Assembly: GCF_036840915.1 (NCBI RefSeq) | Contig: NZ_CP085725.1 | Span: 2,790,001 to 2,854,000, forward strand | Source of the DNA: Flavobacterium hankyongi | GTDB lineage: Bacteria > Bacteroidota > Bacteroidia > Flavobacteriales > Flavobacteriaceae | Length of the DNA stretch: 64,000 nt | Reading direction: 5' to 3' | In this document: positions 2,440 to 5,582 of the stretch, one piece after another | Layout of the letters: each line of letters begins with the position of its first letter | Position numbering within the stretch: position 1 is the stretch's first letter | Notes under the pieces: model-generated | Seen by the model: the letters and a program-made list of their open reading frames with translations, nothing else | What the model was told of the DNA's origin: nothing | Database searches by the model: none | Program-made: the position numbers and the translations under genes

Positions 2440-4338
2440 ATGAGTGACGCAATTAAACATGAGTGCGGAATTGCACTTTTGCGATTAAAAAAACCTTTAG
2501 AATACTACAAGCAAAAATATGGCACAGCTTTTTATGGCGTTGAAAAAATGTACCTTCTTCTAGAAAAACAGCATAATAGAGGGCAAGATGGAGCTGGTTT
2601 GGCTAGTATTAAACTAGATGTTGATCCAGGAGAAAGATACATTAGCCGAATTCGTTCAAATCAAGCACAGCCTATTCAGGATATTTTTGGGCAAATCAAT
2701 GCTAGAATCAATCAAGAATTAGAATTACATCCTGAATATAAAGATGATGTTGCACTTCAAAAAGAAAACATTCCTTATGTTGGTGAAGTATTTTTAGGGC
2801 ACGTACGTTATGGTACCTTTGGAAAAAACAGTATCGAAAACGTTCATCCGTTTTTACGTCAAAATAACTGGATGCACCGTAATTTAATTGTAGCTGGAAA
2901 CTTTAACATGACTAATGTAAAAGAGTTATTTGAGGATTTGGTGCAATTAGGACAACATCCAAAACAAATGGCAGATACGGTAACTGTAATGGAAAAGATT
3001 GGTCATTTTCTTGATGATGAAGTCACAGATTTGTACCAAGAATGTAAAGAAAAAGGTTTGTCAAAACAAGAGGCCTCACCTGTTATAGCAGAAAATTTAA
3101 ATATTGCTCGAATTTTAAAAAGAGCATCTAAAAATTGGGATGGAGGTTATGCAATGGCGGGTATGATTGGTCATGGTGATGCATTTGTAACACGTGACCC
3201 CGCAGGTATTCGACCAGCATATTATTACCAAGATGATGAAGTGGTGGTAGTGGCTTCAGAAAGACCAGTAATTCAAACAGTATTTAATGTTCCTTTTGAA
3301 TCAATTCAAGAAATAACACCAGGACATGCATTAATTATTAAAAAAGATGGAAGAGTGCTTGATGAAAAAGTAAGAGAAGCTTCTGTGAAAAAAGCATGTT
3401 CTTTTGAGCGAATTTATTTCTCTCGTGGAAGTGATGCCGAGATTTATCAGGAACGAAAAGATTTAGGCAAACTTATCATGCCATCTGTTCTAAAAGCTGT
3501 TGATAATGATACTGACAATACAGTTTTCTCTTATATACCTAATACAGCAGAGACTTCTTTTTATGGTATGGTCGAAGCGGCAAATGATTTTTTAAATCAA
3601 CGTAAGATATCAGCAATCCTAGAAAATAAAGAGAACTTGTCAGAAGAAAAATTAAAAGAAATTTTATCTGTAAAACTCCGTTCTGAAAAAATTGCGATTA
3701 AAGACGTTAAGCTTCGTACATTTATTACTGAGGATAGTTCTCGTGATGACATGGTTGCTCATGTATATGATGTTACGTATGGTGTCATAAAACCAACAGA
3801 TAATTTAGTGATTATTGATGATAGTATTGTTCGAGGAACTACTTTGAAAAAAAGTATCATCAAAATGATGGATCGATTGAATCCTAAAAAGATTGTAATT
3901 GTTTCTTCTGCGCCACAAATTCGTTATCCAGATTGTTATGGTATTGATATGGCTAAATTGGAAACATTGGTGGCCTTTCAAGCGACGTTAGAGCTTCTAA
4001 AACAGAATAATAAATATCATTTGGTAGAAGATGTATATGCTAAATGTAAAGCGCAAGAACATAAGCAAGATTCTGAAGTTGTGAATTATGTAAATGAGCT
4101 TTATAATCAGTTCACAGATGAGCAAATTTCAGATAAAATAGCTGAAATGTTAACAGAATCATCTGTTAAAGCAGAAGTAAAAATTATTTTCCAATCAGTT
4201 GAAAATTTACACAAAGCTTGTCCAAAGAATTTAGGAGATTGGTATTTCACTGGAGATTATCCAACAGATGGCGGTAATCGTGTGGTTAACCGCGCTTTTA
4301 TGAATTTTTATGAAGGTAAGGATGCAAGGGCGTACTAA
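2440..4338 (+). CDS. Enlarged PurF-like amidophosphoribosyltransferase
   Basis: The protein has an N-terminal class II glutamine amidotransferase domain and a C-terminal phosphoribosyltransferase domain, like PurF, which makes 5-phosphoribosylamine from PRPP and glutamine. Cys9 in HECGIALL would become the catalytic N-terminal Cys after removal of an eight-residue propeptide. LGHVRYGTFG and NFNMTN are typical glutaminase motifs. The PRPP loop is IIDDSIVRGTT near residues 457-467. At 632 aa it is about 130 residues longer than ordinary PurF, with an insertion near residues 365-430 and a C-terminal extension. It could be the housekeeping enzyme or a paralogue; the window cannot decide. Confidence 0.85.
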   Translation: MSDAIKHECGIALLRLKKPLEYYKQKYGTAFYGVEKMYLLLEKQHNRGQDGAGLASIKLDVDPGERYISRIRSNQAQPIQDIFGQINARINQELELHPEYKDDVALQKENIPYVGEVFLGHVRYGTFGKNSIENVHPFLRQNNWMHRNLIVAGNFNMTNVKELFEDLVQLGQHPKQMADTVTVMEKIGHFLDDEVTDLYQECKEKGLSKQEASPVIAENLNIARILKRASKNWDGGYAMAGMIGHGDAFVTRDPAGIRPAYYYQDDEVVVVASERPVIQTVFNVPFESIQEITPGHALIIKKDGRVLDEKVREASVKKACSFERIYFSRGSDAEIYQERKDLGKLIMPSVLKAVDNDTDNTVFSYIPNTAETSFYGMVEAANDFLNQRKISAILENKENLSEEKLKEILSVKLRSEKIAIKDVKLRTFITEDSSRDDMVAHVYDVTYGVIKPTDNLVIIDDSIVRGTTLKKSIIKMMDRLNPKKIVIVSSAPQIRYPDCYGIDMAKLETLVAFQATLELLKQNNKYHLVEDVYAKCKAQEHKQDSEVVNYVNELYNQFTDEQISDKIAEMLTESSVKAEVKIIFQSVENLHKACPKNLGDWYFTGDYPTDGGNRVVNRAFMNFYEGKDARAY

Positions 4339-4357: not shown

Positions 4358-4422
4358 TTAATCGACTTTTTATGTAATTAATCGACTTTCTTTGGCAACT
4401 GAAACATCAAAATATACTTTTG
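4358..4422 (+). promoter_or_regulatory. Promoter with paired direct repeats, small RNA copy 1
   Basis: Two identical 12-mers TTAATCGACTTT lie at 4358-4369 and 4378-4389, a 20-bp period. Immediately downstream are TTTG (4391-4394), a 20-bp spacer and TACTTTTG (4415-4422), an exact Bacteroidota -33/-7 pair. Direct repeats about two helical turns apart just upstream of the -33 element look like a response-regulator operator (LytTR-type regulators bind such sites). The regulator assignment is inference. Confidence 0.65.
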
Positions 4423-4427
4423 GCATA

Positions 4428-4499
4428 CCATTACATAAGTAGGTTAAGTTTATGGTAGATTTGGGGCAAAAAAGGTAGAACTAAGCGTCTACCTTTTTT
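4428..4499 (+). ncRNA. Candidate small RNA, copy 1 (about 72 nt)
   Basis: A strong promoter predicts a start near 4428, and an intrinsic terminator (AAAAAAGGTAGA at 4468-4479, 8-nt loop, TCTACCTTTTTT at 4488-4499) ends it. Between them a short 5' hairpin (ACCAT 4427-4431 with ATGGT 4452-4456) and an unpaired G-rich segment (TTTGGGGC) can be drawn. The sequence is identical in copy 2. No gene lies downstream on this strand before the convergent sodA, so it is a stand-alone transcript rather than a leader. An 8-codon ORF (4452-4478, MVDLGQKR) lies inside. It may belong to a known flavobacterial RNA motif; this could not be checked. Confidence 0.7.
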
Positions 4500-4593
4500 A
4501 TTTTATTGTTTTCCAATTCTATTTTCTCCTTCAAAAAAAATAGAAAAAAACGCCTAACTAAATTTAGTTAGAAAACAATATTTTTAATCAGAT

Positions 4594-4656
4594 AAACGAT
4601 TATTTTCTCATTTTGACGATTATTTTTGGTTTACCAAAATCAGCAATATACTTTTA
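4594..4656 (+). promoter_or_regulatory. Promoter with paired direct repeats, small RNA copy 2
   Basis: AAACGATTATTT (4594 onward) and GACGATTATTT (4615 onward) form a direct repeat with the same 20-bp period as copy 1. TTTG (4625-4628), a 20-bp spacer and TACTTTTA (4649-4656) form the promoter, with one mismatch in the -7 box. The second CGA core sits 8 bp from the -33 element in both copies. The operator bases differ from copy 1 (CGATT against CGACT) while the geometry is kept. Confidence 0.6.
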
Positions 4657-4661
4657 CCTCA

Positions 4662-4733
4662 CCATTACATAAGTAGGTTAAGTTTATGGTAGATTTGGGG
4701 CAAAAAAGGTAGAACTAAGCGTCTACCTTTTTT
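4662..4733 (+). ncRNA. Candidate small RNA, copy 2 (about 72 nt)
   Basis: Predicted transcript from about 4662 to the terminator stem 4702-4713/4722-4733. It is base-for-base identical to copy 1, although the promoter and upstream repeats have diverged. That pattern suggests the RNA itself is under selection or is kept uniform by gene conversion. It ends 27 bp before the sodA terminator. Confidence 0.7.
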
Positions 4734-4760
4734 ATTGAATTTAATGAATTAATAATAATA

Positions 4761-4793
4761 AAAAAGCGCACTGAAAAACAGTGCGCTTTTTTT
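4761..4793 (-). terminator. Bidirectional terminator downstream of sodA
   Basis: AAAAAGCGCACTG and CAGTGCGCTTTTT form a 13-bp perfect stem around AAAAA. It has T runs in both orientations and lies 17 bp beyond the sodA stop. Confidence 0.9.
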
Positions 4794-4809: not shown

Positions 4810-5415
4810 TTATTTTGCTTCCGCGTAACGTCTTGCTACTTCCGTCCAATTAATTACATTAAAGAAAGCTTCAATGTAGTCAGGACGACGGTTTTGATAG
4901 TTGAGGTAATAAGCATGTTCCCAAACATCCATTCCTAAAATTGGAGTTCCGCCACAACCAACGCCAGGCATTAATGTGTTGTCTTGATTTGGAGTTCCGC
5001 AAACTTCTAATTTTCCATCTTTAACACATAACCAAGCCCATCCAGAACCAAATTGAGTTGCTCCAGCTTTAGAAAAAGTTTCTTTGAAAGCAGCAAAACT
5101 TCCAAAAGCAGAATTGATAGCATTAGCTAATTCTCCTGTAGGCTCACCACCGCCATTTGGAGACATTACGGTCCAAAATAAATTGTGATTGTAAAAGCCA
5201 CCACCATTATTGCGAATAGCAGCTTTGGTCATGTCAAGATTTTTAAGAATCTCTTCAATAGATTTTCCTTCTAAATCTGTTCCTGCAATGGCAGCATTTA
5301 GATTTGTTGTGTAAGCATTATGGTGTTTAGAATGATGGATTTCCATTGTTCTAGCATCTATATGTGGTTCTAATGCATCATATGCATAAGGTAATTGTGG
5401 TAACTCAAAAGCCAT
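4810..5415 (-). CDS. sodA: Iron/manganese superoxide dismutase
   Basis: It dismutates superoxide to hydrogen peroxide and oxygen. The ATG at 5415 gives [20 protein letters not shown], the normal N-terminus; an upstream in-frame start would add 12 unsupported residues. The 201-aa chain has metal ligands His27, His77, Asp163 ([10 protein letters not shown]) and His167. Gly73 in the helix and Gln144 in the loop favour a manganese or cambialistic enzyme over a strict iron enzyme. Three cysteines between residues 130 and 154 are unusual for the family. TAATTTTG (5460 to 5453) is a possible -7 box. No secretion signal is present. Confidence 0.96.
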
Positions 5416-5582
5416 ATTATTTATGTTTAAAAGATTAATAATTAAATTCATTCAAAATTAAACATTTAACTTTGTAATTAAAATTTTTTTGGCTGGTTTT
5501 CCTCCTTTTCCGAACAATCTTTTTATTTTTATAGTCAAGATATCAAGGCAGATTTAAATCTATTTTGATTAACACATTCATA

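Follow-up and report, generated by a model that had tools for sequence, protein, structure and literature searches.

Our analysis reveals a real, widespread and multicopy family of predicted small RNAs (sRNAs) in the Flavobacteriaceae, together with a LytTR response regulator that is a strong candidate for the dedicated regulator of these RNAs. The likely function is that of a trans-acting antisense sRNA, encoded in several copies and placed under control of this regulator.

Two identical predicted sRNA genes between purF and sodA

The window, a 64-kb stretch of the Flavobacterium hankyongi genome, contains a gap of 471 bp between a PurF-like amidophosphoribosyltransferase gene (2440-4338, plus strand, with the ORF ending at 4338) and the Fe/Mn superoxide dismutase gene sodA (4810-5451, minus strand), and both sRNA units lie in this gap, convergent with sodA. 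The sodA ORF is listed from position 5451; the ATG at 5415 is probably its true start, because the conserved N-terminus MAFELPQL begins there. A repeat scan of the window recovered the units as a direct repeat (4411-4507 and 4645-4741, spacing 234) with an overall identity of 94%. The 76 bases from 4427 to 4502 are identical to those from 4661 to 4736 at 76/76 positions, whereas the 80 bp upstream of the two copies share an identity of 54% only. A 29-nt core pattern, searched with up to 3 mismatches, matched exactly twice in the window and never in 100 shuffles of it. The whole 3.47-Mb genome likewise holds exactly two copies (92 and 90 bits), and a third candidate, the next best match with 28.8 bits, was rejected as being at chance level.

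Each unit carries its own set of signals on the plus strand. The promoter of copy 1 (4391-4422) consists of a -33 element TTTG at 4391-4394, a 20-bp spacer and the -7 element TACTTTTG at 4415-4422; that of copy 2 (4625-4656) has TTTG at 4625-4628, the same 20 bp and TACTTTTA at 4649-4656. Both promoters are of the Bacteroidota type, and the -7 element is conserved across the sRNA family. Transcription of copy 1 is predicted to start near 4427 and to yield an RNA of about 74 nt (4427-4500), to which the predicted RNA of copy 2 (4661-4734) is identical. In copy 1 the RNA comprises a first hairpin with an ACCA...UGGU stem and an invariant loop containing AGUAGGUUAAG (4427-4456), a single-stranded linker AGAUUUGGGGC formed by invariant columns and proposed as seed (4457-4467), and an intrinsic terminator (4468-4499). 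The linker AGAUUUGGGGC of copy 2, likewise of invariant columns, lies at 4691-4701 and its terminator at 4702-4733, and in both copies the terminator stem is 12 bp long and 100% complementary. Thus the description in the earlier note, of two units in this gap with TTTG at -33, 20 bp, a -7 element and a 12-bp terminator stem, and with 76 identical bases below diverged upstream DNA, holds in every part. Between the array and the convergent sodA lies a strong, bidirectional terminator-like inverted repeat, AAAAAAGCGCACTG / CAGTGCGCTTTTTTT (4760-4793, assigned to neither strand), which probably serves both.

Identity of the two copies

The relative G098 also possesses two copies, and the comparison separates two processes. 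A 41-nt core is identical in both copies here and in both copies of G098, and this core is therefore under selection. The terminator halves of the two G098 copies share an identity of 68%. Copy 2 of the window combines a copy-2 type promoter (87.5% identity to G098 copy 2) with a terminator that belongs to the copy-1 type (94% to G098 copy 1). Recent gene conversion of the transcribed part, in which the copy-1 type replaced the terminator of copy 2 after the split from G098, explains this arrangement. The alternative offered earlier, selection or gene conversion, is accordingly best answered by both: a selected core and a recently converted terminator.

An sRNA family of the Flavobacteriaceae

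When genomes of the same genus were searched with the repeat itself, 172 of 200 gave matches. An nhmmer search of 80 records that encode a sodA relative revealed units at many of them; at these loci all units lie directly 3' of sodA on the convergent strand, in tandem arrays of 1-6 copies. The genera concerned include Flavobacterium, Maribacter, Zobellia, Winogradskyella, Algibacter, Aquimarina, Mesonia, Kordia and Arenibacter. With a covariance model built from 58 units, matches at E<=0.01 were obtained in 250 of 301 genomes of the Flavobacteriaceae, representing 201 of 237 genera; of these 250 matches, eight are weak (E above 1e-5). In a sample of about 354 genomes from the whole phylum, the model matched 35 of 42 members of the Flavobacteriaceae and five genomes outside the family, and these five (E between 2e-4 and 1e-2) are taken as chance.

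The Rfam models, including flavo-1, 6S-Flavo, Qrr and FopS, gave no match at gathering threshold in the 64-kb window. At permissive thresholds the best sub-threshold matches at the locus were driven by the terminator and were set aside as chance, and a literature search for the sRNA core sequence found no paper. Judged by sequence, the sRNA family is specific to Flavobacteriaceae and uncatalogued in Rfam. Both searches had been proposed in the earlier note: that of the genomes revealed multicopy loci with compensatory stem changes conserved across the Flavobacteriaceae, and that of Rfam, with flavo-1 included, returned no family at gathering score.

Structure and conservation of the RNA

The alignment backs a structure of a 5' hairpin (ACCA...UGGU), an open loop AUAAGUAGGUUAAG, the linker AGAUUUGGGGC and the terminator. 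Changes on both sides occur at 8 of 12 modelled pairs, and cells with double changes number 41 against 10.5 in shuffles, none of the 500 shuffles reaching as high; the signal was destroyed in a control in which the partners were slid. In hairpin 1, 99.1% of cells are paired and three of four pairs show changes on both sides. Pairing in this 5' stem is kept through rare double changes, while the sequence of the terminator stem, which covaries in the family, is freely variable. The hairpin loop and the linker AGAUUUGGGG are nearly invariant, and the linker is the most constrained stretch of all.

An ATG stands before the conserved linker, which could be read as the start of a short peptide of 8 codons, ATGGTAGATTTGGGGCAAAAAAGGTAG. 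In marine genera, however, a one-base insertion GGTAAGATTTGGGG breaks this frame, and other genera alter the A-run with the same effect, the RNA being kept in each case; since indels break the frame while the RNA is retained, the coding reading is excluded for practical purposes, and we give it hardly any credence. The units are repeated, contain inverted repeats and occupy an intergenic gap, which could likewise suggest a mobile element, a REP-like element or a leader whose gene has been lost. Against an element of this kind, the units are confined to one locus and one bacterial family with no scattered copies, each has its own promoter and terminator, and a conserved core is combined with covarying stems; against a leader, the terminators follow directly, so that no downstream gene would be led. 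We regard both versions as extremely improbable and interpret the units as sRNA genes.

Promoter boxes

Upstream of each -33 element lies a pair of direct-repeat boxes, a feature that is absent from the earlier note. In copy 1 (4358-4387, plus strand) the pair is TTAATCGACT at 4358-4367 and TTAATCGACT at 4378-4387, 20 bp from start to start; in copy 2 (4592-4621, plus strand) it is ATAAACGATT at 4592-4601 and TTTGACGATT at 4612-4621. Fitting a two-box model to 180 non-redundant promoters, with the spacing left free from 8 to 39, yielded the box consensus TT[CT][AG][TA]C (TTYRWC). The spacing was exactly 20 bp in 134/180 promoters compared with 8/180 shuffled ones, at a fixed distance from the RNA; about a quarter of the promoters are without a 20-bp pair. 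Throughout the F. hankyongi genome the perfect pattern occurs solely at the two sRNA promoters, and pairs with one mismatch elsewhere are not in excess (6 versus 10 for a reversed-pattern control). A LytTR site comprises two repeats, each 9-11 nt long, with 11-13 nt between them (PMC4847170). The repeats described here are about 10-11 nt apart, depending on the box length taken, and this separation is at or just below that range.

A candidate LytTR regulator

The F. hankyongi genome encodes ten LytTR proteins. The candidate among them is a response regulator encoded between priA and rpsF (C1:266,132-266,821 of genome G000), with a receiver domain (PF00072, 75.2 bits) and a LytTR DNA-binding domain (PF04397, 68.3 bits). 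We inferred a tree of the LytTR proteins from ten small sRNA-positive genomes, ten sRNA-negative genomes and F. hankyongi. One clade, with a support of 100/100, unites one LytTR protein each from nine of the sRNA-positive small genomes with that of F. hankyongi; the 62 rows analysed from sRNA-negative genomes all fall outside it. In several of the sRNA-positive small genomes the clade member is the sole LytTR protein, and all ten members adjoin priA and/or rpsF-rpsR. The tenth sRNA-positive small genome, G387, has no LytTR protein.

A profile of this clade splits the E-values in 301 genomes sharply, and we set the cut at 1e-70 for the regulator and at E<=1e-5 for the sRNA. In the cross-table, counted by reading two tables, 231 genomes have both, 11 the sRNA only, six the regulator only and 53 neither. 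The corresponding Fisher test (p ~6e-41) ignores common descent, and shared ancestry inflates its value. Four of the 11 genomes with sRNA only are at least 95% complete; two of the six with regulator only are near-complete, and both belong to genus g11. These two, G209 (L289, L295) and G442, have a regulator with E ~1e-94 and no sRNA above chance, and would be a good place to look for other genes under its control.

The genomes that lack the regulator bear directly on the boxes. In four lineages (G387, G265, G338 and G365) the RNA core is kept and the boxes are absent, with two-box scores of -4.6 to -0.4 versus a median of 12.5, scores that are optimistic because the model was fitted and scored on the same promoters. 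Five other regulator-negative genomes (G446, G394, G288, G492 and G279) retain the boxes at at least one copy, and for these mostly either the assembly is incomplete or a sister genome is regulator-positive; box scoring is unreliable for the diverged RNAs of G388 and G370. The regulator-less G338 (L284, L294) possesses a tandem pair, 123 bp apart, with almost identical RNA parts, and therefore arrays persist without boxes.

Taken together, the association of the priA-rpsF regulator and the boxes with the sRNA is correlative and strongly supported, and the regulator appears to be dedicated to switching the sRNAs on. An alignment of the receiver domains, with the F. hankyongi regulator (L177:1495-2193) as reference, also indicates that the usual phospho-acceptor Asp has been lost in several small-genome lineages (L193, L196, L197, L198, L212, L214), and therefore the regulator may act independently of phosphorylation in those lineages.

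Possible targets and mode of action

In 14 Flavobacterium genomes we counted 86 occurrences of CCCCAAATCT, the complement of the linker. About 60 of them lie outside sRNA genes, whereas the reversed word occurs 26 times; part of this excess of a 10-mer may be due to intergenic sequence that is C-rich and repeat-like. Of 61 distinct non-sRNA sites, 11 lie in sense orientation between -60 and +20 of a start codon and one in antisense orientation (p ~3e-5). The leaders concerned belong to genes for an M28 peptidase, a response regulator, ClpS (in F. hankyongi), an LRR protein and a Roadblock-domain protein. In F. hankyongi, clpS (L321:1513-1785) carries CCCCCAAATCT (CCCCAAATCT) 12 nt before its ATG, and an M1 peptidase gene (L371:2729-4354) has CCCCCAAATCC directly before its ATG, with the leader complement CCCCAAATCC. 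With clpS left out, the word CCCAAAT is found in leaders 7 times in an independent sample of F. hankyongi, 864 kb in size, where 1.74 are expected (p=0.002), a weak signal from one of 17 words tried. No such enrichment of leaders was present in 400 kb of G259, an sRNA-positive genome of another genus, and no recurrent gene with a linker-complement leader was found between the Flavobacterium genomes. An unbiased seed test thus gave a modest signal in F. hankyongi, no replication in G259 and no leader signal in the sRNA-negative G224; the words TTTTTGC and TACCTTT, which also stood out in the test, were attributed to the -7 promoter element and disregarded. Duplex energies from RNAduplex proved too permissive and were left out. 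The over-representation of the linker complement directly before start codons in Flavobacterium is suggestive only, a hint of pairing.

The data weakly favour pairing with mRNA leaders over other modes of action, and the main rival is a protein-binding decoy comparable to CsrB/RsmZ or 6S RNA, in which more copies would simply offer more binding sites. A decoy would suit a loop and linker that are near-invariant family-wide, tighter than expected for targets that vary between species, as well as a copy number that varies from 1 to 6 and the failure to find a recurrent target. On the other hand, the linker complement is enriched at leaders in Flavobacterium, the RNA offers one short hairpin and one linker instead of an array of repeated motifs, and it matches neither 6S nor other Rfam families, and we thus consider a decoy unlikely. 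A motif search in a sampled quarter of the F. hankyongi genome found no RRM-type RNA-binding protein.

A separate question is whether the RNA is already partly known, as Rfp18 or another Rfp RNA of F. psychrophilum, an identity that would be compatible with the antisense mechanism. Rfp18 is conserved throughout the genus and expressed in F. columnare too, and a deletion mutant contains less mRNA of two metalloproteases (PMC9723704); the leaders with linker complement found here include those of the M28 peptidase, the M1 peptidase and ClpS. The text nevertheless describes pairing via a third stem-loop, whereas the present RNA has two, and makes no mention of tandem copies, purF or sodA (PMC9723704). 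We rate the identity with Rfp18 or another Rfp RNA as rather doubtful, if somewhat more credible than a decoy, although the present array may well be represented among the 85 Rfp RNAs.

The explanation that we consider probable as a whole is a LytTR-driven, multicopy antisense sRNA whose linker pairs with mRNA leaders. Each copy would be transcribed from its own promoter of the main-sigma-factor type of Bacteroidota into an RNA of about 74 nt that ends at its own terminator. The single dedicated LytTR regulator encoded between priA and rpsF would bind both direct repeats before each copy and so activate all copies together, and several copies would provide dosage and a robust output. The RNA would then act in trans, with the linker AGAUUUGGGG, perhaps together with the loop AGUAGGUUAAG, pairing to mRNAs directly before their start codons and altering their translation or stability. 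A bolder reading, to which we give about even chances, sees a near-universal circuit of the Flavobacteriaceae in which the sole conserved sites of one LytTR regulator are those of an expandable tandem array of identical antisense RNAs.

Most of what is known about RNA-based regulation in Bacteroidota comes from Bacteroides. The Flavobacteriaceae are a large environmental family, and an sRNA that occurs in about 85% of their sampled genera and has a candidate for a dedicated regulator would constitute a core system of regulation there. If the single-regulator circuit is true, the whole output of a two-component branch would be delivered as RNA. Regulator, boxes and RNA are all short elements at single loci and could be deleted in a laboratory strain such as F. 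johnsoniae. This makes the circuit directly testable, and with it the way in which antisense RNAs act in a phylum without Shine-Dalgarno sequences.

Comparison with known systems

The csRNAs of Streptococcus, controlled by CiaR, and the Qrr RNAs of Vibrio, controlled by LuxO, are encoded by near-identical sRNA genes with promoters of their own under one response regulator. The present family resembles them in having at least two near-identical sRNA genes with separate predicted promoters and terminators. It differs in sequence and structure, with no Qrr match at gathering score, in a candidate regulator of the LytTR class and in a tandem array at one site; targets of the Shine-Dalgarno type are also absent from Bacteroidota (PMC7366714). 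Of the comparison with these families drawn in the earlier note, the circuit logic of several copies under one response regulator, here a candidate, stands, whereas membership of either family does not.

In RNAIII/AgrA of Staphylococcus and FasX/FasA of Streptococcus, expression of a regulatory RNA is driven by a LytTR-type response regulator that acts on direct repeats. RNAIII and FasX are single, longer RNAs of unrelated sequence, in contrast to the tandem short copies described here, and the candidate regulator of the present family, unlike AgrA and FasA, is not encoded beside the RNA. Rfp18 shares with it the host genus, conservation within this genus and possible protease targets, and would be set apart by the three or more stem-loops described for it.

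The nearest analogue within the phylum is FopS. In the source that also names Qrr and csRNA as multicopy sRNAs, FopS and GibS of Bacteroides are multicopy sRNAs of 65-70 nt with main-sigma-factor promoters (PMC11697453), and FopS, with 14 paralogues in B. thetaiotaomicron, pairs at translation-start regions (PMC11697453). Homology to FopS (RF04319) was rejected: its model gave 12 weak matches elsewhere in the F. hankyongi genome and none at the locus, with a best score genome-wide of 23 bits against a cut-off of 56, and the two RNAs have in common a short AGGTTAA string only. What FopS and GibS share with the present sRNA is that all are short, multicopy RNAs of Bacteroidota with promoters of the main-sigma-factor type, predicted ones in the present case.
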